The notes: generated from the letters alone by a model not told the origin. Positions 27,901 through 45,489 are shown, counted from the stretch's first letter. The stretch is DNA of 64,000 nt from Candidatus Competibacteraceae bacterium (GCA_003989085.1 RXIV01000009.1:62001-126000); one strand, 5' to 3'. Made by a program: numbers and translations.

Positions 27901-27917
27901 ACAGTTCGGTGACACCC

Positions 27918-27947
27918 TTTATAATACGGCTTTTTATAATACGGCTT
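27918..27947 (+). repeat. Tandem 15-bp repeat containing TATAAT boxes
   Basis: TTTATAATACGGCTT occurs twice head to tail (27918-27932, 27933-27947). Each copy contains a perfect TATAAT. It lies 100 bp upstream of the tpsB gene and could provide two -10 boxes, but no good -35 is seen at 16-18 bp spacing. Confidence 0.6.
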
Positions 27948-28046
27948 TCTTCCGGGCTTTCCGTGGAAACCATCATTTGGCATTTCGCAGAGCGCCCCGG
28001 ATAACCCACGACGCAATGTCAGACCGCTGAACGGGAATCCATCGCC

Positions 28047-29804
28047 ATGTCCCATCCCGCTGCTTCAAGCCAGGCTCATGCTGCTCATGGTCAGGATGAC
28101 CGATGGTCATGGGTTCAGACCACAACGCTGAGTTTGCTGGCGTTGCTGTCATTTGCAGCGGGGGCGCAGGAGAGCGATTTCTGGGCGCAGCGTCCCGGCG
28201 GGCGGTCCTTGGCGATTCCGGATTATGTGGAGCCAGCGCCAAGGGCGCTGGACCTTCCCAAACCCTTGCCACACCACGATCCCCCGCTGTCCGCTCGTGA
28301 GCGGATCAGAGTGGATCGCTTTGCTCTGACCGGAAATACAGTCTTTAGCGCCAGCGAATTGGCGGCGGTCACCGCGCCTTATCTCCATCGTATGCTGACT
28401 GCTGAGGAATTGCAGGATGTACGGCGACAGTTAACGCTTTATTACGTTGAGCGTGGTTATCTTAATTCCGGCGCGGTGATTCCCGATCAGCCCGTTGAGA
28501 ATGGCGTAGTGCAAATCCGGATCATTGAAGGCCGATTGACCGCACTGGAAGTGACCGGTGCTACGCATCTGGCTGATGATTATTTTCAGCAACGCTTGCG
28601 TCCTGAAGCCGATGCGCCATTGAATGTTTCGTACTTGCAGGATCGGCTGCAATTGCTGCAACAAAGTCCATTGATCGAACAGCTTCAGGCTGAACTGACG
28701 CCAGGGGTTCAGCCGGGCGAAGGCGTATTGCAGTTGGCAGTCCGGGAAGCCCGTCCTTATGAAATAGGTTTGGCGGTGGCGAATAATAATCCGCCCAGTA
28801 TTGGGCAAACTCGGGCCTATCTGTATGGGCTGGATCGCAATCTGAGCGGGGTCGGCGACAGTCTTGGACTGAGTTACGGCCACAGTCTGGAAAGCAGCAC
28901 GGCGGACTGGCGGGTCTTTTACGCCAGGCCTCTAAATGCCCAGGACACGACCTTGCAGGTATGGGCTGAACAGAATGAAACTTCAGTTATTGAAGACCGC
29001 TTTGATAGCCTGGATATCACTAGCACCTTGCAAACTTATGGGGTTTCACTGACTCATCCTGTTTACCGGACGCCCCAGCAGAGTTTATCGATGGGTTTCA
29101 ATGTGGAGCGGCGGCACAGTGAGTCTTATCTAGGCGATATCCCTTTCTCTTTTGCGCCCGGCGAAAATGAAAACGGTCAGGCGACGATTGCCGTGGCGCG
29201 ATGGATTCAGGAGTGGCTGGATCGACAACTGGATCAGGTCATTGCCGCCCGCTCAACGTTCAGTTTCGGTTTCGATGCATTCGGCGCGACAGTCAACACG
29301 CTGGAACCGGATGGTCGCTTTATCGCTTGGCTGGGGCAACTTCAATGGGCGCAGCGTTTTGGTGAACAGGATTACCAGCTTATCTTCAAGAGTAATTTAC
29401 AACTGGCTAATCAGCCGCTGTTGCCGATGGAAAAATGCGCACTGGGTGGGATGAATACAGTGCGGGGCTATCCAGAAAATACTTTAGTACGTGATCAGTG
29501 TTTCAACGCTTCGCTGGAATTTCGGGTGCCGGTTTATCAATTGCCACTAGCCGGAGTCAGTCGTGGATATCATGAAGGGCAAGTGCAATTAGCGGCGTTT
29601 GCTGATTACGGTCATGCCGATAACAAGGGACAGTTTAATCTGGAGCCGCATTCGATTTACAGCGCCGGTTTGGGTATCCGCTGGGATCCAGGCTCAAAAA
29701 TCAACGCGGCGCTGTATTGGGGATATCCATTCCAAGATGTAGCTGAAGGAGAAACCGGCTGGCTGAGTCCGCGAATCAGTTTTGCGGTGCAGGCAGCTTA
29801 TTGA
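28047..29804 (+). CDS. Two-partner secretion outer-membrane transporter (TpsB, FhaC/ShlB family)
   Basis: A 585-aa outer-membrane protein that would export the TpsA exoprotein encoded at 35276-37837. After a signal region (hydrophobic residues of about 22-42) come two POTRA domains (about 88-160 with FALTGNTVFSASEL, and about 161-235 with LTALEVTGATHLADDYFQQR), then a beta-barrel. The L6 loop motif VRGY is at residues 472-475 (GGMNTVRGYPENT), essential for secretion in this family. It is encoded 5.4 kb away from TpsA on the opposite strand, with the rest of the locus in between. Confidence 0.92.
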   Translation: MSHPAASSQAHAAHGQDDRWSWVQTTTLSLLALLSFAAGAQESDFWAQRPGGRSLAIPDYVEPAPRALDLPKPLPHHDPPLSARERIRVDRFALTGNTVFSASELAAVTAPYLHRMLTAEELQDVRRQLTLYYVERGYLNSGAVIPDQPVENGVVQIRIIEGRLTALEVTGATHLADDYFQQRLRPEADAPLNVSYLQDRLQLLQQSPLIEQLQAELTPGVQPGEGVLQLAVREARPYEIGLAVANNNPPSIGQTRAYLYGLDRNLSGVGDSLGLSYGHSLESSTADWRVFYARPLNAQDTTLQVWAEQNETSVIEDRFDSLDITSTLQTYGVSLTHPVYRTPQQSLSMGFNVERRHSESYLGDIPFSFAPGENENGQATIAVARWIQEWLDRQLDQVIAARSTFSFGFDAFGATVNTLEPDGRFIAWLGQLQWAQRFGEQDYQLIFKSNLQLANQPLLPMEKCALGGMNTVRGYPENTLVRDQCFNASLEFRVPVYQLPLAGVSRGYHEGQVQLAAFADYGHADNKGQFNLEPHSIYSAGLGIRWDPGSKINAALYWGYPFQDVAEGETGWLSPRISFAVQAAY

Positions 29805-29894
29805 GCAGTGGTTAGCAATGTGGAATGTACTGCCAAATCCAAATGGGATTTGACGTGACTGGAGATTGCTTTATCACTCCAAGGCCCGACTCGA

Positions 29895-30881
29895 TTATGG
29901 ATTGCCCGCATTCGCCGCTTGGGCCGTCGCGATCAAGGCCGGGTCAATCTGTTTGGCGAATAAGGCCCACACCGGCATCATCGCCTGACGCCAATTAGCC
30001 CGCTCCTGATCAGTCAGTACGATAATGCGAGTCTTGCCCGCAGCAAGGATTGCCTGTCGGTCCCGGTCAGCCTGTTCAGCAGCTTGCGTTTTGACCTCTT
30101 CGGTGACCTGCGCCAGAATCGTGTCCAGTTCACTGCGGAGATCTGCCGGCAGTCCGTTCCAAAAGGTTTTGCTGGTGATCAGCATATAGCCTTGGAAACT
30201 GTGGTTAGTCTCGGTAATGTCCGTCTGCAAGGTTTGGAATCCTTGGGAATAGATGTTGCTCCAGGCGTTTTCCTGCCCCTCGACCAGTTCGCGGCGCAGG
30301 GCGTCCCGGGTATCGGCCAATGGAAGCTTGACCGGAATGGCCCCGAGACGCTGGTATTGCGCTTCGATGACTTTGGAAGGTTCGATGCGCAGGGTCAGGT
30401 GCCGAAGATCCTCTGGGCTGCGGAGTGGTTTGTTGGCCGAAATGACCCGCATCCCGTTGGGCCAGTAACCGAGGCCTTTTAGTCCCTTGTCGTCCAGCGC
30501 GTTCAGCAGACGCCGACCGGTCTCGCTGTTCTGAAACCATTCTACCGCAGCCAGATCATTGAATAGAAAGGGCAAATCGTAAACCTCTAGGGCTTTGGTG
30601 AGAATGCTGAATTTGGACAGGGAGGGTGCTGCAAGCTGGACATCATTGTTCAGCAGGGCGATAAAGACCTCATCATCGTTATACAGTTTGGCGTCCGGAA
30701 ACACCTCGACCTTCACCCGCCCCGCCAGTTTTTCCTCGACCAGTTGTTTGAAGCGGTTAGCGCCACTGCCCTTGGGCGTCTGTTCAGCGACGACGTGGGA
30801 AAAACGAATGACCACCGGCTCCGCTCCAGCACCGCTTAGGGTGAATGAAAACAGTAGAATGAAACTCAGGACGGCTCGCAT
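29895..30881 (-). CDS. TRAP transporter solute-binding protein (DctP family), orphan
   Basis: A 328-aa periplasmic protein. The start at 30881 gives the signal peptide MRAVLSFILLFSFTLSGAGA; the frame is open upstream but adds an improbable leader. The family pattern is VIRFSHVVAEQTPKGSGANRFKQLVEEKLAG and the carboxylate-binding Arg region LTLRIEPSKVIEAQYQRLGA. DctP proteins bind C4-dicarboxylates or similar acids. No dctQ or dctM gene is in the window, so it must work with distant permeases or as a sensor. It converges on tpsB. Confidence 0.88.
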   Translation of the reverse strand: MRAVLSFILLFSFTLSGAGAEPVVIRFSHVVAEQTPKGSGANRFKQLVEEKLAGRVKVEVFPDAKLYNDDEVFIALLNNDVQLAAPSLSKFSILTKALEVYDLPFLFNDLAAVEWFQNSETGRRLLNALDDKGLKGLGYWPNGMRVISANKPLRSPEDLRHLTLRIEPSKVIEAQYQRLGAIPVKLPLADTRDALRRELVEGQENAWSNIYSQGFQTLQTDITETNHSFQGYMLITSKTFWNGLPADLRSELDTILAQVTEEVKTQAAEQADRDRQAILAAGKTRIIVLTDQERANWRQAMMPVWALFAKQIDPALIATAQAANAGNP

Positions 30882-30961
30882 TTTCAAGATATGGCACCTC
30901 GCATGAACTGGTTGAGATATTAACAAGTGGACTACAAATGGCGTGGCGAATCAGGAGTGCA

Positions 30962-31588
30962 TTATGGATTCGCTCTCGTCGGCTGGCCGGCTTTCTTCGC
31001 CAGAATAATCAACGATTCCCATTGCAGGGATGTCCCCCGGACGCCAATGAACTCGACAACAGTAAAGCCTTGGGATTCCAGCTGTGTGGTTAGGGATTTC
31101 CGTGACCAGCGTTGCAGATAGTTATTATCCCATGCTGCGAAAAAGGGTAGTTGCCACCCTTCGTACAGAGTGATCAGCAGATTCTTCAGATAACCGCCGT
31201 AGGGTATCGACAGAATAAAAACGCCATCAGGCGCCAAATGCTTGGCAGCCATAGCAACCAGCGCCGCTGGGGTATTTGGCGAGGCATCGGATTCGATACT
31301 GATCGCCATATCGAAAACCACGCCTGCAACTGAGCCAATCTCCGGGAATGGTGGACAGAAACGGCCCGCCTCGCCATTTTCACTCAGTTCTATCACTGCC
31401 ACCTGATAGCCGGAGTGCCGCAAATCATGGCACAGTGGCTGCGCGCCGCGACCAATGCCCAGAATTCGCACCACTCCATAACGGGCGCGGAGGTGCAATA
31501 TCACTGACCGGATGCGCGGATTCAGGCTGACTTCTTCTGCATCATGCTGATAGGCAGAATCCGTTGTAATTACCTGATGAGCGACCAT
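30962..31588 (-). CDS. Class I SAM-dependent methyltransferase
   Basis: A 208-aa protein with a UbiG/methyltransferase-11-like fold: motif I ILGIGRGAQPLC (a GxGRG variant of the usual GxGxG), VAVIELSE as motif II, then FDMAISIESDAS and HLAPDGVFILSIPYGG. Its start overlaps the preceding small gene by 19 bases, so the two are probably translated together. The substrate is unknown; no ubiquinone or lipid genes are adjacent. Confidence 0.7.
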   Translation of the reverse strand: MVAHQVITTDSAYQHDAEEVSLNPRIRSVILHLRARYGVVRILGIGRGAQPLCHDLRHSGYQVAVIELSENGEAGRFCPPFPEIGSVAGVVFDMAISIESDASPNTPAALVAMAAKHLAPDGVFILSIPYGGYLKNLLITLYEGWQLPFFAAWDNNYLQRWSRKSLTTQLESQGFTVVEFIGVRGTSLQWESLIILAKKAGQPTRANP

Positions 31589-31812
31589 TGGTTTTCACTC
31601 CAGAGTCGGATCGGTGCTTCGTTTTCCAAGGTATATTCCTGGAAATCATCCCAAATGTTGGGAATAATCATCATAGTGGTTTTACCGTCAAAGAGGGCGC
31701 TACCGTCTGCAAAAATAAAGAGCGCGCTTTGGGAATCAAAGAGGATATGCACTACATCCTTATCTCCTTCTATAATCCCAAAACTAAATCCTAATTCAGC
31801 CATGCTTTGCAT
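31570..31812 (-). CDS. Small protein of unknown function
   Basis: An 80-aa frame with a strong GGAG six bases before the ATG at 31812. The sequence is rich in Phe, Ile and Asp (LFDSQSALFIFADGSALFDG) and probably forms a small beta fold. I do not recognise it. The end overlaps the methyltransferase start. Base composition is lower in GC than the neighbours. Confidence 0.5.
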   Translation of the reverse strand: MQSMAELGFSFGIIEGDKDVVHILFDSQSALFIFADGSALFDGKTTMMIIPNIWDDFQEYTLENEAPIRLWSENQWSLIR

Positions 31813-31855
31813 TGGTGACTCCTGTTATCAGTCAGATTATGGAAAGATAATTTTC

Positions 31856-32668
31856 TCAATCGCAAAGGCTACGCAACCGCCAATCACGTTGATGTGTAGA
31901 CTCAGCAAGAAGGTAGATCATGATCGCCGAAACTATCCAAGCCATTTGGATTCCGGCGCGCAACAAAAGAATATGGAAGGTAGCGCCTAACCCAGCAATC
32001 CAGCCATAGATAGTAAAGAGCGCCATTGGTTTCCGCACGCTCAGGATGTCTCGAAGCACTCCACCACCAGCGCCAGTTAAAAAGCCGAATAAGGCGGCTG
32101 TAGCCACCAGGATGCTCGTTGGCTGTACTCCCAACAATAACGCTTTTTCTGCGCCCAGCGGGGCAAAAATCGCCAGCGCTGCCCGGTCTGCCGCATTCCA
32201 GTTCTCTTCACAATGAACACACATTCTGGGTTCCCAAAGCATGGCCAGCAAAAAACCGATAATCATGGCAATCAAGTAGTCAGCGTTATTAACCCAGAAT
32301 AGATCGTTAAAATCGAGTCCTAATAGCAAGGTGCGTACAGTTCCCCCGCCAACCGCAGTAATCAGGCCACTAATACCTCCTGCTACAAATGCCATTCCAA
32401 TACGCATGTGTTTAAATTGACGGAAACCGATCAAGCTGCCAGTAAATGTAAAAATTGTGGTGCCCGCTAGATCAGCAGCAGCGCGAAAATTTTCAATCCC
32501 AGACCATATGAAGCAAAGACAAAAAGCCAAAAACAGGCACGCGCCAGTAATAAGAGAAGGGCAATTCCGCCATAGGGTCGTCAGGGTAGAAAAGAGAAAA
32601 ATCTCTTGATCGAAGGTTGAGTCCCTTTCTCCATCTCTGGTTTGGACGGTGTTTTGGTGCAGGCACAT
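31856..32668 (-). CDS. TRIC/UPF0126-type cation channel-like membrane protein
   Basis: A 270-aa membrane protein. The ATG at 32668 is preferred because GGAGG stands seven bases upstream; the frame opens earlier at 32746. Two three-helix repeats are visible, each with a glycine motif: AVGGGTVRTLLLG and GAGGGVLRDILS, the signature of the prokaryotic TRIC (UPF0126) family of potassium-permeable trimeric channels. A Cys pair (MCVHCEEN) lies between them, which is unusual. It follows the Crp-type regulator in the same direction after a 200-base gap. Confidence 0.85.
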   Translation of the reverse strand: MCLHQNTVQTRDGERDSTFDQEIFLFSTLTTLWRNCPSLITGACLFLAFCLCFIWSGIENFRAAADLAGTTIFTFTGSLIGFRQFKHMRIGMAFVAGGISGLITAVGGGTVRTLLLGLDFNDLFWVNNADYLIAMIIGFLLAMLWEPRMCVHCEENWNAADRAALAIFAPLGAEKALLLGVQPTSILVATAALFGFLTGAGGGVLRDILSVRKPMALFTIYGWIAGLGATFHILLLRAGIQMAWIVSAIMIYLLAESTHQRDWRLRSLCD

Positions 32669-32865
32669 GTTCAAGCCTCCAGAATGGATTACCCAACACC
32701 TGGTTTTGTCTATTGGTATTGGTTCATGCCTTGCCAGGTCTGTCATAGCGGACCGCGCTGGTGTTATTCAGCAGGGCGCTATTGCTTTCCAAGCATCATT
32801 TAGGAGGCTATTCACGCACTTTCCCTAGTCCCTGGTTGTGAACTACTTCACACTGGCGCGTTTTT

Positions 32866-33618
32866 TTATGGGGCGGGCTGTGAGATCGCGGGAAATCCGG
32901 CTGGATCACGGGTAGAGCTGACGCTGACCGAAGCGGCCAACCGGTGTAACGCCGCAGGCTGCAAAAGGATGAAGCAGCCGTGTTCGACGGTCAGCAGATC
33001 TTCCTTGCGCCAGATTTGCAGTTGCTTGTTGACACTCTCGCGGCTGGCGGCGATCAGGCTGCCGATTTCCTGTTGTGAGATCCGGTGGGCAATGCGGATG
33101 CCAGTCGGCGTGGAGACGCCGTGGATCTCGGCCAGATTGAGCAGTAGGCGGGCTAGCCGGGCGGGCAGGTTCTGGAAGACCAGCCGCTCAATAAACATGC
33201 TGGCGGTTCGCAGTCGCTCGCACAGCACCGCGAGCAGACCTAGCGTGGCCTGGGGATGGCAGAGTAAAAACGGGATGAAGTTGGCGCGAGCCAGGGTGAA
33301 CAATACACACTGGCCCACTGCGGTGGCGGCGGCGCTGCGAGGCTGGCCATCAAGCAGGGCAATTTCGCCGAAACATTCTCCCGGCTGGATCAGGTTAAAA
33401 ACCAGTTCCTTGCCTTCTTCCGACAGAATGCTGATCCGAACCTGGCCGCGCAGCACCAGCATCATGCTGACCCCTGGGTCGCCTCGTTGAAAAATAAGCT
33501 GACCATCGTTAAACCGACGATCCATGCCCAAGGCCAGAAGCTGATCGCGATCCGCCGCGTCCATTCGGCTGAATAGTGGGTGTTCGGCTAACGCAGCGCG
33601 GTGATCAATGAGAGGCAT
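32866..33618 (-). CDS. Crp/Fnr-family transcription regulator
   Basis: A 250-aa protein. The cyclic-nucleotide domain has the phosphate-binding cassette GECFGEIALLDGQPRSAAAT with Glu85, Arg94 and Ser95, the residues that bind ribose and phosphate in cAMP-responsive members; no N-terminal iron-sulfur Cys set is present. The C-terminal winged helix contains ISQQEIGSLIAASRESVNKQ. The start (33618) overlaps the DUF928 gene by 14 bases, so it is co-translated with the secretion locus. A class III adenylate cyclase lies at 40509, making it a plausible local cAMP reader. Confidence 0.88.
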   Translation of the reverse strand: MPLIDHRAALAEHPLFSRMDAADRDQLLALGMDRRFNDGQLIFQRGDPGVSMMLVLRGQVRISILSEEGKELVFNLIQPGECFGEIALLDGQPRSAAATAVGQCVLFTLARANFIPFLLCHPQATLGLLAVLCERLRTASMFIERLVFQNLPARLARLLLNLAEIHGVSTPTGIRIAHRISQQEIGSLIAASRESVNKQLQIWRKEDLLTVEHGCFILLQPAALHRLAASVSVSSTRDPAGFPAISQPAP

Positions 33619-34363
33619 AAGCCGGTTTTGTCCCGGACGCAAAAAACTTTTGATCCTGCCAAGCGACGGTGTTCAGTCCGACCTGCTCCAGCAGGGCCAC
33701 CCGCTGTTCCCGCCAATGATGATCTGCCGGGTTAGCGTCAATCTGTTCGGACAGGACAGCGAGAGCGTCGTACCAGAAGCCCTGTTCGGCGTACAACAGC
33801 ACTTGTTCACCCGGGCTGGCGTTGTCAAGCTGGGCGGCGAGGGCGGGGGTTGGCTCAACCCGCTGGATCGTGCCGCCGGCGATCAGATCACCGGCTCGCT
33901 GATTAGGATCGGCCACAGCGGCGATAGCCCATTGATATTCCACGCCAGTTTTGAGGGGGTAGGTGAGATGCAGCGCATGAATCCCTGGCTGGGCGGCGTT
34001 CAGCTTCATTTCCACCAGCGGTTTGATCGAGTGATCGTCATTCAGGCTGAATTCCAGCGGCGTGGTCAGGCTCTTGGATGAGCACCAGTACAGCGTCGGC
34101 TGGGCGCGGCGGGTCAGTCCGGTGCTTTCTGGAGCGAGAACGCTGAGCGTCAGGCCATCATTATCGGGGCTACCTCGGCTAGCGCCGCCGACCCGGGTGG
34201 CGGGAGCGCCCAGCATCGGCGGCCTGTAAATCGGGAGCCGAGTCGTAGTGGATGGAGGAGTTGCCGCCAACGCGGACGATTGCGCCGGAGCAATGCCGGG
34301 CGTTGCGAGCATGGGCAGGGCCAGGGTTAAGCCGATCAGCAGTCGGAAATGGAGAGCATGCAT
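33605..34363 (-). CDS. DUF928 secreted protein
   Basis: A 252-aa protein starting at 34363 (AGGAG nine bases upstream) with the signal peptide MHALHFRLLIGLTLALPMLA. The body has the DUF928 hallmarks: RVGGASRGSPDNDGLTLSVLAPESTGLT, then TPLEFSL, GVEYQWAIAAVAD and FWYDALAVLSEQI. DUF928 genes occur mostly in cyanobacteria and filamentous sulfur bacteria, beside CHAT, TPS and CHASE2 genes, as here. The function is unknown; the predicted location is the periplasm or cell surface. Confidence 0.85.
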   Translation of the reverse strand: MHALHFRLLIGLTLALPMLATPGIAPAQSSALAATPPSTTTRLPIYRPPMLGAPATRVGGASRGSPDNDGLTLSVLAPESTGLTRRAQPTLYWCSSKSLTTPLEFSLNDDHSIKPLVEMKLNAAQPGIHALHLTYPLKTGVEYQWAIAAVADPNQRAGDLIAGGTIQRVEPTPALAAQLDNASPGEQVLLYAEQGFWYDALAVLSEQIDANPADHHWREQRVALLEQVGLNTVAWQDQKFFASGTKPAYASH

Positions 34364-34552
34364 GGCGGGAATCTCCTGAAATAGTGGTTTTTTAAATCTC
34401 ATGAGTCATCGAAGCTAGCGGTGGCGATTGCGAAACGGGTTGCGTGGACGGTGATTTTATCCACCGTCCACGGTAAGAGCGTGGTATGCACCATTGCTGC
34501 AATGCTGCGCCAATGCAGGCATAGCTTATTGACTTGACGGAGACACATTAAC

Positions 34553-35191
34553 TTAACGACCGCGCACCACGCCTTTAATCGTTAGCAGGCTGCCGGGGTT
34601 AGCGCTATCCCGCAATGGCAATTCCGTCGAGAATGCGCCTGGACTGCTGGCGTCGATCTTGAAAACAAAATCGGCCGCATAGACCTGCTCTTTTTTCTCA
34701 ATGGGCTTCAGCACCAGTTTCATTTCCACTGGATTAGCGGTTTGCTTGATTACGCCAAAGTCCAGAATGTATCGGTTCGTTTTGGTGTCGCGCCGGAATT
34801 TCGCCTTAGTTGCGCTATTTTCAAGCGGAAATTGAGAACCCTTGGATAGGCTCTTGAGCGAGATTTGGGGTGAGGAGTTTCTTGGCGCCAGCATGGCACT
34901 CGTGTTGGCAAGGTCGCCTATCAATAAATTGGAAAGTACCCAAGGAGCAGAGTATCCGTGGTACGGCGGCGGCGGCGGCGGCGGTGGTTTTATTGGCACT
35001 CCCCATCCATTTGTGGCTCCCCAACTGACGCTTCCTGCTTGAAGCGGAACACATCCCGATGATGATGGGTTGCAATTGAACAGACTGGCTTTGCTTTGGA
35101 TTTCGAGGAGGCCCGGCGCTGCGAACGCAGAAGCGGCAGAACCCAGGAGACCTCCAACCAGCAACATCCATCGGACAGTTTTCGTATTCAT
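34553..35191 (-). CDS. Secreted protein with poly-proline linker, unknown function
   Basis: A 212-aa protein with the signal peptide MNTKTVRWMLLVGGLLGSAASAFAA. Residues 68-75 are eight prolines encoded by a GGC-type triplet run (34967-34989 on the plus strand), a site prone to slippage. The rest is beta-rich with a C-terminal FKIDASSPGAFSTELPLRD. No known domain was recognised. It lies between TpsA and DUF928, transcribed with them, and is probably an accessory surface protein. Confidence 0.6.
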   Translation of the reverse strand: MNTKTVRWMLLVGGLLGSAASAFAAPGLLEIQSKASLFNCNPSSSGCVPLQAGSVSWGATNGWGVPIKPPPPPPPPYHGYSAPWVLSNLLIGDLANTSAMLAPRNSSPQISLKSLSKGSQFPLENSATKAKFRRDTKTNRYILDFGVIKQTANPVEMKLVLKPIEKKEQVYAADFVFKIDASSPGAFSTELPLRDSANPGSLLTIKGVVRGR

Positions 35192-35275
35192 GGCAACACT
35201 CCCTGATGATTTGGATGATTGAGAAAGGTCATAGGCACATCAGTATAGATTTGAAGTATTGAACCTCCGTAGAAG

Positions 35276-37837
35276 CTAAGGGGTATTATCGGAAGACCCT
35301 GTTATCAGCCTTGGGTCTGGCGGCAGTGAGCATCGTCTGACTGGAGCCGACAGCATTTCATCCGGCGCAGGCGGCAGTCCCTCACGGCTCTGCACTGTGA
35401 AACGGCTGCGTTCATCTGCGCTGTTCCCTCCGCAGCGGCGGCTCAATTGTCCGGCGGCGTCGAGATAAGCGACCGGCAATGCCGTGAAGTTGGCGCTGAT
35501 GTCGGTCACAGGCGCGTTGTTCTGCACCGCGCCGTCATTGCCGGCTATCCCGGAGGACGCATCCAGCACGTCCTGCGCCGTCGCAGCGTTGAAGAGGAAA
35601 ATGTCGGTATTAACGGTGATTCGCCCACCCAAACCCTGAGTGGCGGTAGCGGTAACTTTGCCTCCGTTGAGGGCAATCAGTTGCGCCCCATTGATTTCAA
35701 CATTGCCACCTTGGGTTTTTTGATCGCCGAACACTGAAGCGCTGATCTGGCCGCCGTCCAGCAGTAGGCGATCCGCGTTGATCAACAGGTTGCCGCCGGC
35801 AGTTCGTTTTGACGTGGCGAAAATACCGCCACCGTTGCTAATCGAGAGTTGGGGAGTGGTGAAGCTAATGTCGCCCGCTTGGCCGGTTCCCTCGGCGCTG
35901 CTCAGCAGGCGGGAGGGGCGACCTGTAGCGTCGGCGCCCGCAATCGTGGCTGCACCGCCGACGCTGATGTTAATGCGGCCACCGGCACCTGAACTGAAAG
36001 CGCCAGCGACAATGCCGCCCCCGTTCGCAAGTGACAGCGTATCTGCGACAGTGAGCCTGATTTCACCCCCCGCGCCGGTGGAACCGGGGTACGCGCCGCT
36101 GGTGATGCCGGTGAGAGCGGTGGATCCCTGCCCGTCCACTAACAGGTTGCCGGCATTCACGGTGATAGTCCCGGCATCGCCATCGGCGAAGGTGCCGGCG
36201 CTGATAGAGCCGCCGTTCGCCAGCGACAATGTATTGGCGACACCGATATTCACTGCTCCCCCTGCGCCGGTGGAACCAGAGTACACGCCGCTGGTGATGC
36301 CAGTGAGGGCGGCGGATCCCTGCCCGTCCACTAACAGGTTGCCAGCATTCACGGTGATGGTCCCGGCATTGCCATCGGCGAAGGTGCCGGCGCTGATGGA
36401 GCCGCCGTTTACCAGCGACAATGTATTGACCATGATATTCACTGCTCCCCCCGCGCCGGTGGAACCGGGGTACGCGCCGCTGGTGATGCCGGTGAGAGCG
36501 GTGGATCCCTGCCCGTCCACTAACAGGTTGCCGGCATTCACGGTGATAGTCCCGGCATCGCCATCGGCGAAGGTGCCGGCAGTGATGTTGCCGCTACTAA
36601 CAAGGGAGAGGGTGTCAATGACGCTAATCGTTATATCGCCACTCGCGCCAGTGGAACCAGGAGAGGCAATACTGCTGATGCCGGTCGGAATGGTGGATCC
36701 CTGCCCATCGATGAACAGGTTACGAGTGCGCACACGGATCGCGCCGGCGTCTCCTGCGTCGTAGGCACTGGAATAGATGAAGCTACCTCCACTCAGATCG
36801 AGGCGACCCACATCCACCACCACCGATCCGGCGTGACCGGAACCATAGGACTCCGTTATCAGCGAGGCGTTATTTTCAAACTGCATTTCGTCCTGAAGAG
36901 CGACGTTGATGTCGTACCCGTCCCGACCCCCGAAGGAGTCAGAGACCACGACACCGCTTTGGCTGTACCACTTTCCACCGCGAATGAAAATTGCCCCGCC
37001 GCCAGCGCCGCTGGTATCTATATCGGCTAACGGCACGTCGCCAAAGGGATCGCCGCGATTGACGACAACCCGATCCGCTGCACCACGCTCCAGCGTCAAT
37101 GTCCCCAACCGCCCAAAGCCCACCATCGCCAAATCGCTATCGGTTGGCGCCACTTCTCCTGCCGAGCCGACCGAAGCCAGATTGATCCGGCCTGCCGAAG
37201 CGTACAGCGTGGCGTTGTGCAAACTGATGTCGCCGCCGATCAGCGAGAGCGTCTGCCCTTCAGGGACGCGCAGGAAACTGCCATTGACGGCGATCGGCGC
37301 TGGCGATGCGCTCAGAAAGCCGAACGCCGCGACCGGCGCAACCGTCAACACGCTGTGGGCGGGATTACGGGCGTCAAACCGTCCACCGTCGCTCAGGCGC
37401 AAGGCGTCGGCGGTGCTGATATGCACCGAACCGTTCACATCCAGCCTCGCGTTCTCTCCAAACAGCATTCCCGCCGGATTGAGCAGATACAGGTTCGCCC
37501 CCGGAATGGTGGAGCGGAGCGTCCCGTCAATCAGCGACGCCTGGCCGCCGGTGACCCGCCCGATAATGTTGCTGACCGAATTTGGGCCGCTGAAGGTGGC
37601 GGATTCGCCCGTGTTGACTGAAAACTGGCCGAAGCTGTGGAACAGGTTACCGCCGACTTGCCGGCCCAAATCGGATGTGATCTGGTAAGTTGGCCCCGAC
37701 AACGCCCCAGCCCGGCCTAGCGATCCGTCGGTGGTCACGCCGCCGTAAGCGGGAACCGTGAGCGTCAGGGTAAAGGCAACCGCGCCAGCTGCGCCGACAA
37801 ACCACCGTCGGGCGTCAGTAAAATGGAAGGCATTCAT
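35276..37837 (-). CDS. Two-partner secretion exoprotein (TpsA, haemagglutinin-type)
   Basis: An 853-aa secreted beta-helix protein. The ATG at 37837 has GAGGT eight bases upstream and gives a signal peptide; the previous gene stops 13 bases before it. The TPS secretion domain lies at about 30-150, with NPAGMLFG (N120-P121) and GQASLIDG. Later come filamentous repeats, among them at least four units of about 63-64 aa (DGQGSTALTGITSGAYPGST, then FADGDAGTITVNAGNLLVDG) at 36100-36750. The C-terminus (RRCGGNSADERSRFTVQSRE then GLPPAPDE) matches the cyanobacterial type. Its transporter is the TpsB at 28047. Confidence 0.9.
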   Translation of the reverse strand: MNAFHFTDARRWFVGAAGAVAFTLTLTVPAYGGVTTDGSLGRAGALSGPTYQITSDLGRQVGGNLFHSFGQFSVNTGESATFSGPNSVSNIIGRVTGGQASLIDGTLRSTIPGANLYLLNPAGMLFGENARLDVNGSVHISTADALRLSDGGRFDARNPAHSVLTVAPVAAFGFLSASPAPIAVNGSFLRVPEGQTLSLIGGDISLHNATLYASAGRINLASVGSAGEVAPTDSDLAMVGFGRLGTLTLERGAADRVVVNRGDPFGDVPLADIDTSGAGGGAIFIRGGKWYSQSGVVVSDSFGGRDGYDINVALQDEMQFENNASLITESYGSGHAGSVVVDVGRLDLSGGSFIYSSAYDAGDAGAIRVRTRNLFIDGQGSTIPTGISSIASPGSTGASGDITISVIDTLSLVSSGNITAGTFADGDAGTITVNAGNLLVDGQGSTALTGITSGAYPGSTGAGGAVNIMVNTLSLVNGGSISAGTFADGNAGTITVNAGNLLVDGQGSAALTGITSGVYSGSTGAGGAVNIGVANTLSLANGGSISAGTFADGDAGTITVNAGNLLVDGQGSTALTGITSGAYPGSTGAGGEIRLTVADTLSLANGGGIVAGAFSSGAGGRINISVGGAATIAGADATGRPSRLLSSAEGTGQAGDISFTTPQLSISNGGGIFATSKRTAGGNLLINADRLLLDGGQISASVFGDQKTQGGNVEINGAQLIALNGGKVTATATQGLGGRITVNTDIFLFNAATAQDVLDASSGIAGNDGAVQNNAPVTDISANFTALPVAYLDAAGQLSRRCGGNSADERSRFTVQSREGLPPAPDEMLSAPVRRCSLPPDPRLITGSSDNTP
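36066..36750 (-). repeat. Tandem repeats of about 190 bp inside tpsA
   Basis: Units start near 36101, 36293, 36482 and, more worn, 36671 (192-, 189- and 189-base steps). A 134-base stretch is identical between 36066-36199 and 36447-36580, 381 bases apart, while the middle unit has diverged. Confidence 0.85.
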
Positions 37838-37850
37838 CAGGGATGACCTC

Positions 37851-40082
37851 TTACAGCCAGTTGCCAATCAGCAGGAACGGCGACCAGTAGCCGGGATGCT
37901 GATAGCGGCGGTCGGCCAATAGCCGGACTTGGGCCTGTTGCAGCGCTCTGACCTTGGACTGATCCGGCCGCTGCAATTGTTGGTAAAACTCGGTCGCCAG
38001 CAATCCTGAAGCCTGATCGTTGACGAGCCACAGCGTGGCCAGCACACTGCGGGCGCCGGCCTTGACCGCCACCCCGGCCAGACCCAGGGCGGCGCGATCA
38101 TCGCCGGCAGCAGTCTGGCAGGCGCTCAACGTCAGCAATTCCACCGGCTGATCGCGGTACTGACCGATGGCGATCAGCCGCTCCAGCCGATCCAGAGTCA
38201 GCTTGTCATCAAAGGTCAGCAGGAAAGTGTTACGCACGTCGCCAACAAACTGGCCGTGCGTAGCGATGTGAACAATGGAATAAGGTGTTGCTTTCAGTGC
38301 CTGCTGGAGGTTGGCCAGTCGGAAGGTCTCGTTCTCCAGCACCTTGCCGCCATAAGCGGTATGAATGGCCGCCAGTTCCTCCTGAACGTAATCGAGCGCC
38401 GGGAACCCCTGCACTGCCTGGGTCAGGCCGGCAAGCAACGGCTGAATCTGATGGCGCGGGATAGGGCGCAGATCGGTCAGGGTCAGCCCCGGCGTCGTGG
38501 CGATGGCGTAGCGGCGGATCAGAAAGTCCTGGCCGTCATGCAGCGCCGCCAGCGGAATGGTGCGTAACGGCCCGTCCGGGACGATGACCAGTGTTTCGAT
38601 CCGCCCGGCATCAAGTGTGGTTTGCAATGGCCGAATCAGCCAGCCATAGAGCTGTTGCGCCGGTGGCAGATATTCGCGGCTGGTGCGCTTTTCCAGCGTG
38701 CGCCGGAACTCGCGCACCACGCTGGTGAAGGTGTTGCGGTCAACCCGCACCGTGATTTGCTCAAGGTTGTCCGGAGTGCTGAGCAGCAGTTCTAGCCGGT
38801 TAGGCAGCAGAATCGGGTAAAGGACGGCGGTGTGCGGCGGTGGTCGATCCAGCGTGACGGTGCGCGATTGCAGCGCGGTTATGCAATCATCGCGGAAATA
38901 ATCCCGCACCTCGGCAGTTTTCAATGCCTCCATTGTGTCGCGGGCCGCCCGCAGGTCGGCATCGCGCGCGGCGGGCGCAGCCTGGCCGGCAGCGCGTTGC
39001 AATAGCAGATCGGCCAGTTCAGTGAACGCATCGCCGCTATTGGCTTGGAGGGAAGCAGCATGGTTTTTGGCGCGATCCGGCGCGAAATCCTGGCGGATCG
39101 TCTGCAAATTTACGACCGCCTGCCGGTAAGCCAGAATCGCGCCGTCGTGGTCACCCTGCGCTTTCAGCAGTCGGCCAATCGGCCACTGCCAGCGATAGAG
39201 CAGTTCTGGCGCGTTGGCTTGCTGAGCGGCGAACACGGCCTGCCGATACAGCGCCAGCGCCTCGGTGGATCGGCCCGCGTCCCGTTGCCATTGCGCTTGG
39301 TAACCCAGCGCATAGGACAGACTGCGCTGATCCTCCAGTTGCCGGGCAATGGCGGCGGCAGCCGTGAAATGCTGCCAGGCTTGCGTCTGCTGCGATACCG
39401 AAGCGCCAGGCAAGGTGCGGCGCAGTTGGCCGATAGCCAACAGGTAGTAAGCTTGGTCATGGCTGGCTGGCAGGGTTTGGGTCTGGCGAGCGGCTTCAGC
39501 GAGCAGAGTTTCCGCCGTTCCCGAATCGCGTTCCTGCGCCGCCAGGCGGGCTTGATTGATCAGCACGGCGGTAATCAGCGCCGGGTCTTGGACTTGTCGG
39601 GCCAAGCTTAGGCTCTCTTGCCAGGCGACGCGGGCGGATTGGGCGTCGCCCTGATCGGCAGCCAGATTACCCAGATGATTAAGGCCGGCGGCGGCGATGG
39701 GCAGCGCATTGGCTTGCCGGGCCAGCGCCACACTGCGCTCCAGTGCGTGGCGGGCTTCAGCAGTGGCGCCCGTCCGCCACAGGGTCTCGCCCAACTCGCC
39801 CAGCACGGTGGCATGGCGGGCCGGATCGGCAAGTGGTTCGGCCAGGGATTGCGCGGTGCGCAGGGCGGCAAGGGCGTTCCGGTATTGGCCCAAGGCCTGA
39901 TCGGCTTCGGCCCGTTGCAACAGGGCGTCAACTTGCCGAGTTTGATTGTTGGGGGGTGCTGTGGCGCTTTGAGGCAATGCCTCAGCCGATAGGCCGGTGG
40001 GGACTGCGCCCAACGACCACAACAAGAGGCCGATCATACCGGCCAGTGAGGAACGCCAAGACAGGTAGGGATTGAAAGGCAT
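37851..40082 (-). CDS. Secreted TPR-CHAT protein (caspase-like)
   Basis: A 743-aa protein with an N-terminal signal peptide or anchor (residues of about 8-33), TPR-type helical repeats (about 50-370: AEADQALGQYRNALAALRTA; AGLNHLGNLAADQGDAQSA; LALYRQAVFAAQQA) and a C-terminal CHAT protease domain (about 440-743). The catalytic His609 (VHIATHG) and Cys655 (TLSACQTAAGDD) are both present, followed by GVAVKAGARSVLATLWLVND. CHAT is the peptidase fold of separase and Craspase. It is first in the operon and lies 13 bases ahead of tpsA. The signal peptide predicts export, unlike cytoplasmic defence CHAT proteins. Confidence 0.9.
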   Translation of the reverse strand: MPFNPYLSWRSSLAGMIGLLLWSLGAVPTGLSAEALPQSATAPPNNQTRQVDALLQRAEADQALGQYRNALAALRTAQSLAEPLADPARHATVLGELGETLWRTGATAEARHALERSVALARQANALPIAAAGLNHLGNLAADQGDAQSARVAWQESLSLARQVQDPALITAVLINQARLAAQERDSGTAETLLAEAARQTQTLPASHDQAYYLLAIGQLRRTLPGASVSQQTQAWQHFTAAAAIARQLEDQRSLSYALGYQAQWQRDAGRSTEALALYRQAVFAAQQANAPELLYRWQWPIGRLLKAQGDHDGAILAYRQAVVNLQTIRQDFAPDRAKNHAASLQANSGDAFTELADLLLQRAAGQAAPAARDADLRAARDTMEALKTAEVRDYFRDDCITALQSRTVTLDRPPPHTAVLYPILLPNRLELLLSTPDNLEQITVRVDRNTFTSVVREFRRTLEKRTSREYLPPAQQLYGWLIRPLQTTLDAGRIETLVIVPDGPLRTIPLAALHDGQDFLIRRYAIATTPGLTLTDLRPIPRHQIQPLLAGLTQAVQGFPALDYVQEELAAIHTAYGGKVLENETFRLANLQQALKATPYSIVHIATHGQFVGDVRNTFLLTFDDKLTLDRLERLIAIGQYRDQPVELLTLSACQTAAGDDRAALGLAGVAVKAGARSVLATLWLVNDQASGLLATEFYQQLQRPDQSKVRALQQAQVRLLADRRYQHPGYWSPFLLIGNWL

Positions 40083-40508
40083 CTTCGGCGCCTATAACCA
40101 AGCGGTGTGGCGAATGTTCAGAGGCGCCGGGCGGTGTATCGCGGTGACGATCCAAATGGATCGACACCACGCGGCCAGTCGCTACTTTTTGCGCTTTCCA
40201 AGTAAGTCAAAAAAATGGATTTATTGCAAGTATGTATTTTAAAAACAAATACTTGATTATGTATTTGAATGGATGCAAAACCAGGTTTTGGCCGAAGGAG
40301 GGCTGTGTCCTACTTACTCCCTGCTTTGAGGAACCCGTTTCACCTTCTTGTCAATGTCAAGAGACGATTTGGGTTCTCGGAGGTCGATCCAGGCCAGCCG
40401 TTATCCTGTCAAAAATACAGTCATTCTCCTCTACAATGTGATAATTCATTCGTCGATCAACACGCTGCCGCAAATTCATAGATATGGCATGGCGGTCAAG
40501 TAAATCTC
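40083..40508. promoter_or_regulatory. Divergent promoter region between chat-tpsA operon and CHASE2-cyclase
   Basis: 426 bases without a gene, AT-rich in the middle. An imperfect inverted repeat CAAGTAT...ATACTTG (40228-40256) stands near the centre. A lone TGTGA half-site is at 40437. No reading frame here looks coding. It probably holds the promoters for both directions. Confidence 0.55.
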
Positions 40509-42470
40509 ATGGGCTGGATAAGTAATGCGAGGTTAAACCGGTGGTTGCCGGAATGGCCCGCGCCGGCGGTCTGCCTGCTGCTCGGCTATTTGACGTTCAT
40601 CGGTTTGCTGGCGTTGTGGTATGGCGGTGCGCTGCAAACGCTGGAGCTGCTGGCCTACGATCACGGCTTGCGCGGACAGGCGCTGCCGGCGCCGGATGAG
40701 CGAATTGTAGTGATCGGTGAAACGGAAACTGACCTGCATCGCTGGGGCTATCCACTGTCGGATGGCATCCTGGCGCAGGCGTTGGAACGGCTGGCGGAAG
40801 GGCGGCCCCGGGTCATCGGGGTGGACAAATATCGCGATCTGCCAACACCGCCGGGCAGCGAGTCGTTGGATCAACTGCTCCGCCGTCACCCGGAGATCAT
40901 CTGGGTCACCAAATTCGGCAACTTCGCCGCCCACGATCCCGCTATTGCTCCGCCCGCCGCCTTGGCGGATACCGATCAGGCCGGTTTTAGCGATGTACCC
41001 CTCGATGACGATGGTCAGGTTCGGCGCGGGCTGCTGTTTCTCGACAATGGGCGGCAAACTGCGACCGCCTTCGCCCTGGCCGTGACCTTGCGCTATCTCA
41101 AGGCGGAGCGGATCGTTCCCCAAGCGGACCCCGATCATCCCGATCAGATGCGGCTCGGCACGACGACGATTCCACCGCTGGCGGCCAACACCGGGAGCTA
41201 TATCCACGCCGACGCTGCTGGCTATCAATACCTGCTGGATTATCGAGGCCGAATCCGCTCTGCGCAGATCTATACCCTGACCGATCTGCTACAGGGTCGG
41301 CTGCCGACGGCGCAACTGGCTGACAAGATCGTGCTGCTGGGCGGGATGGCCGAAAGTTTGCGCGATGACTTCCATATCCCCGTTCCTCATATTCTGGTGG
41401 ATTCACCGGCAGACGATGCGCCCGGACAGATCGCCGGCGTTCTGCTTCATGCCTTGCAAATCAACCAGCTACTCCGGTTCGCCTTGGCGGGCGATGCGCC
41501 AGTTCGCGGCCTGCCTGATGTAGCCGAAGCGGGCTGGTTGTGGCTATGGTGCCTGATCGGGGTTGGGTCGGTGCTGGGCCGGCTGCGCTTTCGTGGCGTG
41601 CTGCTATTGATGGCGCTGGCGCTGGCGACGCTGGCAGGCATTTGGCAACTGGCGTTTCGCCACCAACTTTGGCTACCGCTGGTTGCGCCGGCGTTGGGCC
41701 TGAGCATCACCGCCGCCCTGTCCGGGGTTTATCTTTCGGTCCGTGACCATGCCGAAAAACGGGCGTTGATGAAGCTGTTTGCCCGCCATGTCGCCCCGGA
41801 GGTCGCCGACGCCTTGTGGCGCGAGCGCAAGCAGTTGATGGCCGGCGGGCGGTTATTGCCGCAACGGCTAATCGTCACCGTACTGTTCGCTGACCTGCGC
41901 GGATTCGCCGCGATTGCCGAGGCGCTGGAGCCGGTGGTGCTGATGGACTGGCTGAACAGCTACATGGCAGCGATGACCGAGCTGATCATGACGCATGGTG
42001 GAGTGGTGAAACAGTACGTCGGCGATGAGGTGATGGCCCTGTTTGGCGCACCAACCCCGCGCTGGAGTGGGGCGGAAATCAAGGACGATGCAGTGCGGGC
42101 GGTGCGGTGCGCACTGGCGATGGGCGAGCGGCTACAACAGCTTAATGCCGGATGGACGACCCAGCGTCTGCCGACGGTCGCGGTGCGGATCGGGATTCAC
42201 ACTGGGCCACTGGTGGCGGGCAGTCTGGGCAGCCACCGCCGGCTGGAATACACAGTAGTGGGCGATACCGTCAACATTGCCTCGCGGCTGGAGAGCTTCA
42301 ACAAGGACGCCTCGGAGGCAGCGCAGCGTCCCTGCCGGATTCTGATCAGCGCAGCGACCTTCCATATGCTGAATGGTCGGTTTCGAGTGACCGAAGTAGG
42401 CCAAGTCCAGTTCAAAGGCAAGCAGCAGGAAATAACGGTTTACCAGGTTGATGGGATCAGCGATTACTGA
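40509..42470 (+). CDS. CHASE2-domain class III adenylate cyclase
   Basis: A 653-aa membrane protein: one N-terminal helix (about 18-40), an extracytoplasmic CHASE2 sensor (about 45-330), three helices (about 343-415) and a cytoplasmic class III cyclase domain (about 455-650). Metal-binding Asp462 (LFADLRGF) and Asp506 (VGDEVMALFG), the adenine-selecting Lys501 and Asp586 (VVGDTVNIASRLE), and transition-state Asn589/Arg593 are all present, which predicts an active adenylate cyclase. It is divergent from the chat-tpsA operon, whose fifth gene is a Crp-type regulator. Confidence 0.93.
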   Translation: MGWISNARLNRWLPEWPAPAVCLLLGYLTFIGLLALWYGGALQTLELLAYDHGLRGQALPAPDERIVVIGETETDLHRWGYPLSDGILAQALERLAEGRPRVIGVDKYRDLPTPPGSESLDQLLRRHPEIIWVTKFGNFAAHDPAIAPPAALADTDQAGFSDVPLDDDGQVRRGLLFLDNGRQTATAFALAVTLRYLKAERIVPQADPDHPDQMRLGTTTIPPLAANTGSYIHADAAGYQYLLDYRGRIRSAQIYTLTDLLQGRLPTAQLADKIVLLGGMAESLRDDFHIPVPHILVDSPADDAPGQIAGVLLHALQINQLLRFALAGDAPVRGLPDVAEAGWLWLWCLIGVGSVLGRLRFRGVLLLMALALATLAGIWQLAFRHQLWLPLVAPALGLSITAALSGVYLSVRDHAEKRALMKLFARHVAPEVADALWRERKQLMAGGRLLPQRLIVTVLFADLRGFAAIAEALEPVVLMDWLNSYMAAMTELIMTHGGVVKQYVGDEVMALFGAPTPRWSGAEIKDDAVRAVRCALAMGERLQQLNAGWTTQRLPTVAVRIGIHTGPLVAGSLGSHRRLEYTVVGDTVNIASRLESFNKDASEAAQRPCRILISAATFHMLNGRFRVTEVGQVQFKGKQQEITVYQVDGISDY

Positions 42471-42562
42471 TGAAGTTGTCGTCCCAGGCTGAGGCCGTTT
42501 CGTCTACCAACTTCATCCTGACAAATCAGCGATTTCCCGGAAACTCTGATTTTGATGTTTTT

Positions 42563-45277: not shown

Positions 45278-45489
45278 CAGATAGCGGGATGTAGCAGAAC
45301 GGGCGATGACTCAATCCTCCGCTTGGCAATGACCGAGGCCGGGCAGATCGCGGCCAAAGCACTGCTGTGGCCGCTTGACTCGGGAAAAGTCCAAATCTGC
45401 TTTGGCGGATTTACCGATGCAAAATCGCTATCAGCCCTTCAGATAGCCTTGAACGATCTGATCGACGCTAATCTCCTGTCTGCGCGGCT
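45278..45489. other. 212-base spacer between the two Hsp70 genes
   Basis: No gene is assigned. The minus strand holds an open stretch ending HCQAED just before the frame of the downstream Hsp70, and a 20-codon frame ending QIVQGYLKG preceded by AGGAG. Neither is convincing alone. It may be a leader, or the remains of a longer coding region. Confidence 0.3.

Follow-up and report, generated by a model that had tools for sequence, protein, structure and literature searches.

Several bacteria hold the C-terminal part of a two-partner secretion (TPS) exoprotein in the periplasm, and some process it there. The TpsA adhesin CdrA of Pseudomonas aeruginosa has a periplasmic C-terminal tail that is cut by LapG under second-messenger control, leading to release from the surface, and the proteases that mature TpsA proteins are apparently not encoded within TPS operons (PMC5422565). 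In the FhaB/FhaC system of Bordetella, envelope proteases, among them DegP, CtpA and SphB1, process a C-terminal part that is retained in the periplasm (PMC8263021), and in HMW1/HMW1B of Haemophilus influenzae the exoprotein is anchored in the periplasm by a C-terminal disulphide loop (PMC3297439). CHASE2 cyclases also have described partners. In Magnetospirillum, a CHASE2-cyclase gene follows mtxA (PMC4439547). In Sinorhizobium, the CyaD1/CyaD2/CyaK-NsrA-Clr system comprises CHASE2 cyclases, a beta-barrel protein of the outer membrane and a regulator of Crp type that serves as reader, and the paper describing it mentions neither CHAT nor two-partner secretion (PMC13001267).

The window analysed here is a stretch of 64,000 nucleotides from a Candidatus Contendobacter-like genome (Competibacteraceae), an uncultured wastewater bacterium. 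Its relevant features are as follows.

27901..42551, no strand, accessory block with the entire module (blastn, flanks of congeneric genomes G068 and G199 against the window)
28047..29804, + strand, TpsB, outer-membrane exporter of ShlB/FhaC type with POTRA_2 (Pfam ShlB E 4e-26, POTRA_2 E 7e-19; homologues at linked loci)
29895..30926, - strand, DctP-type periplasmic solute-binding protein (Pfam DctP E 4e-88)
30962..31588, - strand, small methyltransferase (Pfam Methyltransf_23)
31856..32746, - strand, UPF0126-type membrane transporter (Pfam Gly_transporter)
32837..32852, no strand, candidate CRP palindrome TGTGAACTACTTCACA, the sole site without mismatch in the window
32866..33642, - strand, Crp/Fnr-family regulator (cNMP_binding E 7e-23, HTH_Crp_2; best PDB relative 7pza)
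33605..34402, - strand, DUF928 protein with signal sequence (Pfam E 3e-38)
34553..35191, - strand, secreted poly-proline protein (signal peptide)
35276..37837, - strand, TpsA exoprotein with signal peptide, TPS domain and repeated beta-helix (Pfam TPS E 3e-37)
35348..35518, - strand, TpsA C-terminal motif LP..YLD...L..RC....SRF...REGLPPAPDEML, common to CHAT-linked TpsAs
37851..40082, - strand, TPR-CHAT protein with signal peptide, TPRs and CHAT at residues 473-741 (Pfam CHAT E 2e-62)
40083..40508, no strand, divergent promoter region between CHAT and CHASE2-cyclase, with a conserved AAAAACAAATA element
40509..42470, + strand, CHASE2 receptor with class III cyclase (Pfam CHASE2 E 2e-46, cyclase E 6e-28)

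In G068 and G199 the blastn match to the flanks ends at 27898/27900 and 42552/42554. Because the matches stop at both edges, these genes form a delimited accessory block of 14.65 kb and not a chance arrangement. The genes named by an earlier sequence-only reading are real: Pfam confirmed the CHAT-TPR, TPS, DUF928, Crp-type and CHASE2-cyclase genes, the poly-proline exoprotein has its signal peptide, the TpsA ATG lies 13 bases past the CHAT stop and the Crp-type gene overlaps DUF928 by 38 bases. The interval drawn around them needs correcting, as that reading missed the pore TpsB, which lies outside it, and included three further genes. The DctP-type protein, outside the recurring neighbour families, is probably a bystander, and the UPF0126-type transporter is probably accessory. 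The methyltransferase gene also adjoins crp in two further Competibacteraceae loci (clusters with L032 and L033). The poly-proline protein has no Pfam family match and no relatives in the neighbourhood set.

The CHAT family is familiar from CRISPR immunity and chromosome segregation. Like Csx29, the TPR-CHAT protein of Craspase, and like separase, the window protein combines TPRs, a pseudo-caspase and a CHAT domain predicted to be active in a tandem caspase-like fold with the same His/Cys dyad, as in clan CD peptidases of the CHAT type. The predicted fold comes from a model of fusion L100, built with an alignment that included the window protein; its closest matches are Csx29, with Z 28.5 over 580 residues, and separase, with Z of about 24, both of which are site-specific proteases. 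The catalytic His609 and Cys655, described as intact in the sequence-only reading, are at those positions and are kept in 85/85 homologues; the non-catalytic Cys400 is present in 84 of the 85, and the sequence is conserved across the whole domain. From sequence and model we infer that CHAT would be a cysteine protease of the separase/Csx29 type. Csx29 and separase differ in that their substrates are Csx30 or cohesin and their site of action is the cytoplasm or nucleus, whereas the window CHAT has a signal peptide and adjoins TPS genes. An N-terminal export signal was called, by hydrophobicity and not by a trained predictor, in 77 of 80 complete CHAT frames; together with the fusions to TpsA or POTRA domains described below, this agrees with the predicted export proposed earlier. 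DdvA (PDB 8rw5/8rot), a membrane-linked protein, also matches the TPR-CHAT model (Z 21), but it is an anti-sigma factor, and we know of no TPS genes associated with it. A defence island or CRISPR-linked TPR-CHAT (type III-E, Craspase) was considered and rejected, since Pfam gave no Cas family for any of the ten locus genes (28047 to 42470) and CHAT is predicted to be exported.

TpsA and the nearby TpsB have the features of two-partner secretion (type Vb), namely a TPS domain (residues 45-241 in Pfam) with a visible signal sequence in the former, and POTRA and an ShlB-type barrel in the latter. TpsA is the sole TPS-domain gene in the genome; its coordinates are given from the ATG at 37837, and the open reading frame reaches 37867. 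The C-terminal motif occurs in 13/17 TPS genomes that have this CHAT and in 2/105 that do not (p 2e-12), and the association persists when the training genomes are omitted (p 4e-9). In the TPS tree, CHAT-linked TpsAs form their own clade on a fully supported branch, separate from 21 other gammaproteobacterial TPS domains sampled. Motif-bearing TpsAs thus belong to one clade and the motif correlates with CHAT through a lineage, so the motif was not treated as an independently evolved trait; its link to CHAT may reflect an inherited cassette rather than a substrate relation. This separate clade also sets the locus apart from Bordetella FhaB/FhaC, whose proteases are general or unlinked. As in HMW1, a C-terminal Cys pair is found in 20/36 CHAT-linked TpsAs, and in the window TpsA the second Cys lies 34 residues past the motif Cys. 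However, the spacing ranges over 34-77 residues, and in 16/36 the motif Cys is not followed by a second one, so a disulphide hook was dropped as a universal trait. HMW1/HMW1B also lacks CHAT, CHASE2 and DUF928. A placement of the motif within the active site of CHAT was likewise discarded, as the AlphaFold model of the native TpsA-CHAT fusion segment gave it no confident position (pLDDT about 30). An apparent equivalence of the motif Cys with the catalytic Cys came from misalignment in a mixed TpsA-tail/CHAT alignment.

Loci were gathered with a CHAT-seeded scan of genome contigs; DUF928 has no conserved stretch suited as a seed. TpsA, TpsB, exported TPR-CHAT, CHASE2 and DUF928 recur jointly in Pseudomonadota, Desulfobacteria, Nitrospirota, Verrucomicrobiota and cyanobacteria. 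Among the 58 loci of 10 kb or more, TPS or TpsB is near CHAT in 43 and all four partner types in 17, and on a Pseudanabaena plasmid the five genes are consecutive. Not every CHAT locus has a TPS gene within range, and TpsA is missing from some Nostoc plasmids that encode CHASE2-DUF928-CHAT. Gene fusions point the same way as the neighbourhoods. Desulfonema magnum encodes TpsA-motif-TPR-CHAT, and in TpsA-CHAT fusions the motif sits at the junction; Calothrix 336/3 encodes POTRA-POTRA_2-TPR-CHAT with POTRA domains of TpsB type. These two kinds of fusion place CHAT at the secretion machinery. In Nostoc TCL26-01 CHAT is fused to CHASE2, N-terminal to its first membrane segment; this CHAT is probably cytoplasmic and of a different subfamily. 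Long frames in L089 and L085 were overlapping-frame artefacts and not fusions. Judged by sequence, TpsB and TpsA of one TPS clade, exported TPR-CHAT, CHASE2 and DUF928 are an accessory module of several phyla. The gene set is widely shared and apparently undescribed, and no paper among those searched ties CHAT to two-partner secretion. Co-occurrence of CHAT, TpsA, DUF928 and CHASE2 had been named beforehand as the main check that could refute the earlier interpretation, and it was found across phyla. That interpretation therefore stands for co-occurrence and the exported CHAT, but not for its cAMP loop.

The AlphaFold model of DUF928 (pLDDT 84.5) combines an FN3/Ig-like sandwich with TPR-like helices. 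Its best structural match is MtxA (4z29; Z 10.6, next match Z 6.4), which likewise has a signal peptide, an Ig-like plus TPR fold and a neighbouring CHASE2-cyclase gene. Despite this fold, a DUF928 sequence profile found no match among PDB sequences, and MtxA is not reported with TPS or CHAT. In Desulfobacteraceae, the FecR-like protein (A9) adjoining CHAT shows no sequence kinship to DUF928. The hydropathy of the CHASE2-cyclase suggests a hydrophobic segment at residues 18-36, a sensor domain, more hydrophobic segments and a cytoplasmic cyclase. The sequence-only reading credited the cyclase with every catalytic residue. The CHASE2 and cyclase domains, metal-binding Asp462 and Asp506, Asn589, Arg593 and the Asp/Thr are kept, but the substrate Lys is Gln502 ('VKQYVGD' against 'DKFIGD/NKYIGD'); relatives beyond the Competibacteraceae mostly have Lys. 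Across loci CHASE2 mostly carries a cyclase, with a histidine kinase in Pseudanabaena, TIR in a Phycisphaeraceae MAG and no output domain in some Nostoc, Calothrix and Desulfonema. Comparison of these proteins indicates that the CHASE2 receptor is core to the module and its output domain is not.

The Crp-type regulator has the cyclic-nucleotide signature GE...RSA (GECFGEIALLDGQPRSA) and the recognition helix SRESVNK of the Crp/Fnr family, and 7pza is annotated as a cAMP-binding catabolite gene activator. A crp gene beside DUF928 was found only in Competibacteraceae and one Methylococcaceae locus. The candidate palindrome lies just downstream of crp, between it and the next co-directional operon, and is conserved in L032; L033 has it with a single mismatch. 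Genome-wide there are two perfect TGTGAN6TCACA sites against one for a reversed control pattern, so the number of sites is no proof and the argument rests on position and conservation. The region 40083-40508 has no good CRP site, only matches with three mismatches, and CRP control of the CHAT/CHASE2 promoters, where the regulator had been expected to act, was abandoned. In Competibacteraceae the regulator beside DUF928 is probably the reader of the signal, with the adjacent operon as its target.

We consider it about an even chance, from the sequences and by analogy, that this is a TPS system with a dedicated envelope protease, in which CHAT cleaves the periplasmic C-terminus of TpsA and so sets anchoring or release. 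By analogy with LapG acting on CdrA, a dedicated periplasmic protease on the TpsA C-terminus is the most likely role of CHAT. There a periplasmic cysteine protease cuts a TpsA C-terminal tail; here the corresponding cleavage is deduced from the fusions and the motif. LapG is not a CHAT protein, is outside the TPS operon and responds to c-di-GMP, whereas here the protease gene is beside tpsA and the receptor is CHASE2; by Pfam the locus has no LapG-type protease and no LapD-type c-di-GMP receptor. The system may therefore work like CdrA-CdrB/LapG/LapD but is not a member. In such a mechanism Sec would export TpsA, CHAT and DUF928, and TpsB would thread the beta-helix of TpsA to the outside until, as for HMW1 or CdrA, the C-terminal Cys motif brings it to a halt in the periplasm. 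Periplasmic CHAT would dock at the TpsA C-terminus and cut there, or, in fusions, cut itself off, and cleavage would decide between anchoring and release of the exoprotein. This step would be gated, or reported inward, by the CHASE2 sensor together with DUF928, a putative periplasmic protein of MtxA-like fold; the output would be set by whichever domain CHASE2 carries, here a nucleotide cyclase. Export system, protease and envelope sensor together would probably let the cell trim, hold or release its surface protein on cue. It is a more tentative proposal, which we think could well be wrong, that CHAT reads the TpsA Cys motif, perhaps through a mixed disulphide of the motif Cys with Cys400, and that cleavage both frees the exoprotein and informs CHASE2 through DUF928.

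Proteolytic signalling is a rather unlikely alternative in which the target that exported CHAT cuts or unmasks is DUF928 or the sensor domain of CHASE2, so that envelope events such as TpsA contact or blocked secretion activate the receptor and TpsA is an antenna, not a substrate. It would explain why, on Nostoc and Calothrix plasmids that lack an annotated TpsA nearby, CHAT is still accompanied by CHASE2 and DUF928, and it fits the CHAT-CHASE2 fusion and the pairing of MtxA with a CHASE2-cyclase, where no CHAT is reported (PMC4439547). However, the TpsA-CHAT and POTRA-CHAT fusions bind CHAT to the secretion arm, and the Nostoc fusion is weakened as support by its probably cytoplasmic CHAT. 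A local CHASE2-cAMP-Crp loop governing expression of the TpsA/CHAT operon is improbable. Cyclase and Crp genes occur together here and at the Competibacteraceae locus L033, the conserved palindrome adjoins crp, and Sinorhizobium CHASE2 cyclases signal to the Crp-like Clr (PMC13001267). On the other hand, that palindrome precedes the operon downstream of crp and not the CHAT/CHASE2 promoters, Gln502 occupies the substrate-Lys position and most loci lack Crp. The self-contained cAMP loop of the sequence-only reading is rejected as the core, given that CHASE2 carries different outputs at different loci and that Crp is confined to particular lineages.

CHAT could instead be cargo, a caspase-like enzyme displayed or released by TpsA/TpsB against other cells or phage. 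CdiA proteins carry variable C-terminal toxins, and the Desulfonema magnum CHAT module sits at that same position in TpsA; CHAT proteases also have known roles in bacterial immunity. But nearly all genomes encode CHAT separately, Sec-exported and without a TPS domain, so that TpsB would not export it; CHAT, unlike the CdiA toxins, is conserved over its entire domain, and the recurring neighbour families include no small immunity gene. We give this reading little credence, and contact-dependent inhibition proper (CdiA/CdiB/CdiI) was rejected because the window TpsA has the Cys motif at its end and an immunity-type family does not recur. Large TPR arrays bind extended peptides, and TPR-CHAT might serve mainly to chaperone or hold TpsA in the periplasm so that it stays competent for secretion, the CHAT active site being unused on TpsA. 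The POTRA and TpsA fusions are also compatible with this, and TpsA proteins need holding in the periplasm, as by DegP for FHA (PMC3297439). It is nevertheless very improbable, as a pure chaperone would not require the invariant His and Cys.

Here the protease gene is a cassette member across several phyla, and two kinds of fusion tie the protease to the secretion machinery. Carriers include wastewater-floc and mat organisms (Competibacter, Nitrospira, Beggiatoa-type bacteria and cyanobacteria), for which surface adhesion matters. If CHAT processes TpsA, the module would offer a simple, testable system in which to study how bacteria release surface fibres under control. It would then also give an envelope role to the protease family of CRISPR immunity and chromosome segregation, and a first clue to the function of DUF928 and of CHASE2 receptors. 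If CHAT also reads the motif, cleaves and signals, the module would be a protease-gated secretion checkpoint and the first extracytoplasmic role of a CHAT protease.

The sequence-only reading had the gene content of the locus essentially right, and all of its domain calls were confirmed with Pfam, but it overlooked the partner TpsB, and one of the canonical cyclase residues that it took to be complete is replaced. The genes of the locus are:

28047-29804, + strand, TpsB, on the opposite strand from TpsA
32866-33642, - strand, crp
33605-34402, - strand, DUF928 gene
35276-37837, - strand, TpsA exoprotein
37851-40082, - strand, TPR-CHAT protease candidate
40509-42470, + strand, CHASE2 receptor with class III cyclase domain

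The genome around the window (about 3.5 Mb) has one TPS-domain gene and one full-length CHAT gene. In a CHAT-seeded scan of named genomes the nearest relative of this CHAT was that of Candidatus Contendobacter sp. GW-Mt35 (94% identical), and the organism is therefore assigned to Competibacteraceae. In two genomes of the same genus the match to the flanks stops at 27898/27900 on the left and at 42552/42554 on the right, and neither genome has a DUF928 or TPS gene anywhere. This marks the module out as an accessory block with defined limits; in both congeners its left and right flanks are on separate contigs. On the right (42563-47888) the block is bordered by a tandem pair of Hsp70-like genes, of which one has DUF3731, and by a DUF2760 gene; the Hsp70-like genes occur in the congeners too.

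The association between an exported CHAT and TPS holds up, and it extends far beyond what could be seen from this locus. DUF928 scored above the cut-off in 12 of 369 genomes of the class, spread over families, and CHAT, TPS and CHASE2 were mostly found within about 12 kb of it, given a long enough contig. The CHAT-seeded scan, a second and independent survey, yielded 80 loci. Among the 58 loci of at least 10 kb, TPS or TpsB genes were present in 43, CHASE2 or DUF928 in 40 and all four partner types in 17. Loci with a gene from both the TPS side and the CHASE2/DUF928 side came from Pseudomonadota (21), Thermodesulfobacteriota (7), Verrucomicrobiota (4) and Nitrospirota (4), many of them metagenome bins that are possibly mislabelled. 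Doubtful labels (loci L042, L055 and L056) include a 'Synechococcaceae' contig whose CHAT is 62% identical to that of the window and 'Akkermansia muciniphila' bins with the module. On a plasmid of Pseudanabaena sp. ABRG5-3, ShlB, CHASE2, FHA-N, CHAT and DUF928 are consecutive in the NCBI annotation, and CHASE2-DUF928-CHAT is retained on Nostoc and Calothrix plasmids. Carriers available in culture include this Pseudanabaena strain, Azospirillum rugosum and Desulfonema magnum. In Nostoc ATCC 53789 (L113:7088-12067) the CHAT gene comes after genes for a sigma-70 factor and DUF1822; DUF1822 is also upstream of the module in L114, which may point to a further regulatory output. At five Desulfobacteraceae loci (L104:9186-9926, L057, L069, L072 and L074) the gene upstream of CHAT encodes a conserved exported protein of some 240 residues that matches no Pfam family. 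Its N-terminus looks FecR-like by eye; DUF928 is missing at these loci, and the protein is possibly its functional replacement.

Fused genes are good evidence of cooperation between the parts. In the complete genome of Desulfonema magnum, a 1469-residue protein combines a signal peptide, a TPS domain (E 7e-35), a beta-helix, the C-terminal motif of TpsA, TPRs and CHAT (E 5e-56). Another fusion in this genome, in a 1163-residue frame, has TpsA-type repeats, the motif, TPR and CHAT. In both, the motif stands immediately ahead of a TPR-CHAT part that has no signal peptide of its own. The CHAT protein of Calothrix 336/3 begins with POTRA and ShlB-type POTRA_2 domains beside CHASE2 and DUF928; this plasmid gene (L115:10722-14969) also adjoins a TIR-domain gene. 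A Nostoc CHASE2 protein has a CHAT domain at its N-terminus. The TpsA-CHAT and POTRA-CHAT fusions indicate that CHAT sits on the periplasmic side of the secretion apparatus.

The catalytic dyad His609/Cys655 is invariant in 85 of 85 homologues. The only other cysteine of the window CHAT, Cys400 in a DDC signature, is kept in 84 of the 85, the exception being a divergent CHAT whose genome has no TPS genes. Judged by simple hydropathy, 77 of 80 complete CHAT frames have an N-terminal hydrophobic export signal. The predicted structure of a fusion segment, made with the window CHAT in the alignment, best matched Csx29 of Craspase (Z 28.5, 580 residues), with separases next. Csx29 cleaves one single protein substrate using the equivalent dyad (PMC10028731).

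Near the C-terminus the CHAT-linked TpsAs have in common a motif of about 58 residues, approximately D(I/L)SG.L..LP..(Y/F)LD.S.L...C........SSF.V.GRGGLP..PDG.L, in which the cysteine is invariant; a second cysteine follows it by 34-77 residues in 20 of 36. In the class sample, the motif was found in 13 of 17 TPS genomes with this CHAT versus 2 of 105 without it (p 2e-12), and in 9 of 13 versus 2 of 105 when the genomes from which the profile was built were excluded (p 4e-9). The motif is also present in TpsAs that do not adjoin CHAT but belong to a genome with it (G032). A TPS-domain tree groups the TpsAs with the motif into a single clade, and a branch with full support divides them from 21 other TPS domains. 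The link between motif and CHAT therefore reflects co-inheritance within one lineage, as opposed to repeated independent events. The beta-helix of the window TpsA (35276-37837) has several near-identical tandem blocks (LLVDGQGSTALTGITSGAYPGSTGAGG...), and their copy number is likely to vary. In Candidatus Competibacter phosphatis (L033:12112-14392) tpsA is split into two overlapping frames by a frameshift or assembly error, and in L032, another Competibacteraceae locus, there is no tpsA between CHAT and DUF928.

The window CHASE2 protein has an N-terminal hydrophobic segment, a sensor domain, more hydrophobic segments and the cyclase. Both metal Asp residues, Asn and Arg of the cyclase are in place, and the substrate Lys is replaced by Gln. 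Mycobacterial Rv0386 likewise has Gln at this position and is an active cyclase, so the window enzyme is possibly active. At other loci CHASE2 is coupled to a histidine kinase or a TIR domain, or has no output domain; in a Phycisphaeraceae MAG (L077:12102-13766) the receptor ends in a C-terminal TIR domain, with no cyclase. In the predicted structure of the window DUF928 (pLDDT 84.5), TPR-like helices come after an FN3/Ig-like sandwich. The best structural match of the model is the C-terminal domain of MtxA, with E 4e-5 in Foldseek and Z 10.6 over 156 residues, against 6.4 for the next match. A CHASE2-adenylate-cyclase gene follows mtxA (PMC4439547), an arrangement consistent with a role of DUF928 as a periplasmic partner.

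In Competibacteraceae (L032, L033), and at one Methylococcaceae locus (L035), DUF928 has a crp gene as its neighbour. The window's genome has only two perfect CRP sites. A perfect palindrome at 32837-32852, between crp and the next operon, is kept in the same place in L032 (intact) and L033 (one mismatch). Cyclic-nucleotide output via Crp is therefore plausible in Competibacteraceae. A sequence scan found no perfect site in the CHAT/CHASE2 divergent promoter region (40083-40508), so the visible target would be the operon adjacent to crp. A further perfect palindrome overlaps the CHAT stop codon in L032 (2165-2180), and at another locus (L034:12596-12611) one precedes crp by about 240 bases. 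Crp is no defining part of the module. A self-contained cAMP loop controlling TpsA and CHAT had been proposed; with no good CRP site in the divergent promoter region and with varied CHASE2 outputs, this loop is a local addition only, and the half of that interpretation that stands is the exported CHAT with TPS.

The conserved module, the fusions, the intact active site, the predicted export signals and the motif are established at the level of sequence. In the full-text literature covered, which takes in few subscription journals, we found no report tying CHAT to two-partner secretion, filamentous hemagglutinin or CHASE2, and the link is possibly new. The CHAT protease would act in the periplasm on the C-terminus of TpsA. 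There are precedents for this: CdrA is released when the periplasmic protease LapG cuts its periplasmic tail (PMC5422565), the FhaB prodomain is kept in the periplasm and processed by DegP and CtpA (PMC8263021), and HMW1 stays attached through a C-terminal disulphide loop (PMC3297439). The CHAT-TPS module is not a member of the CdrA/LapG system, yet it probably works in a similar way.
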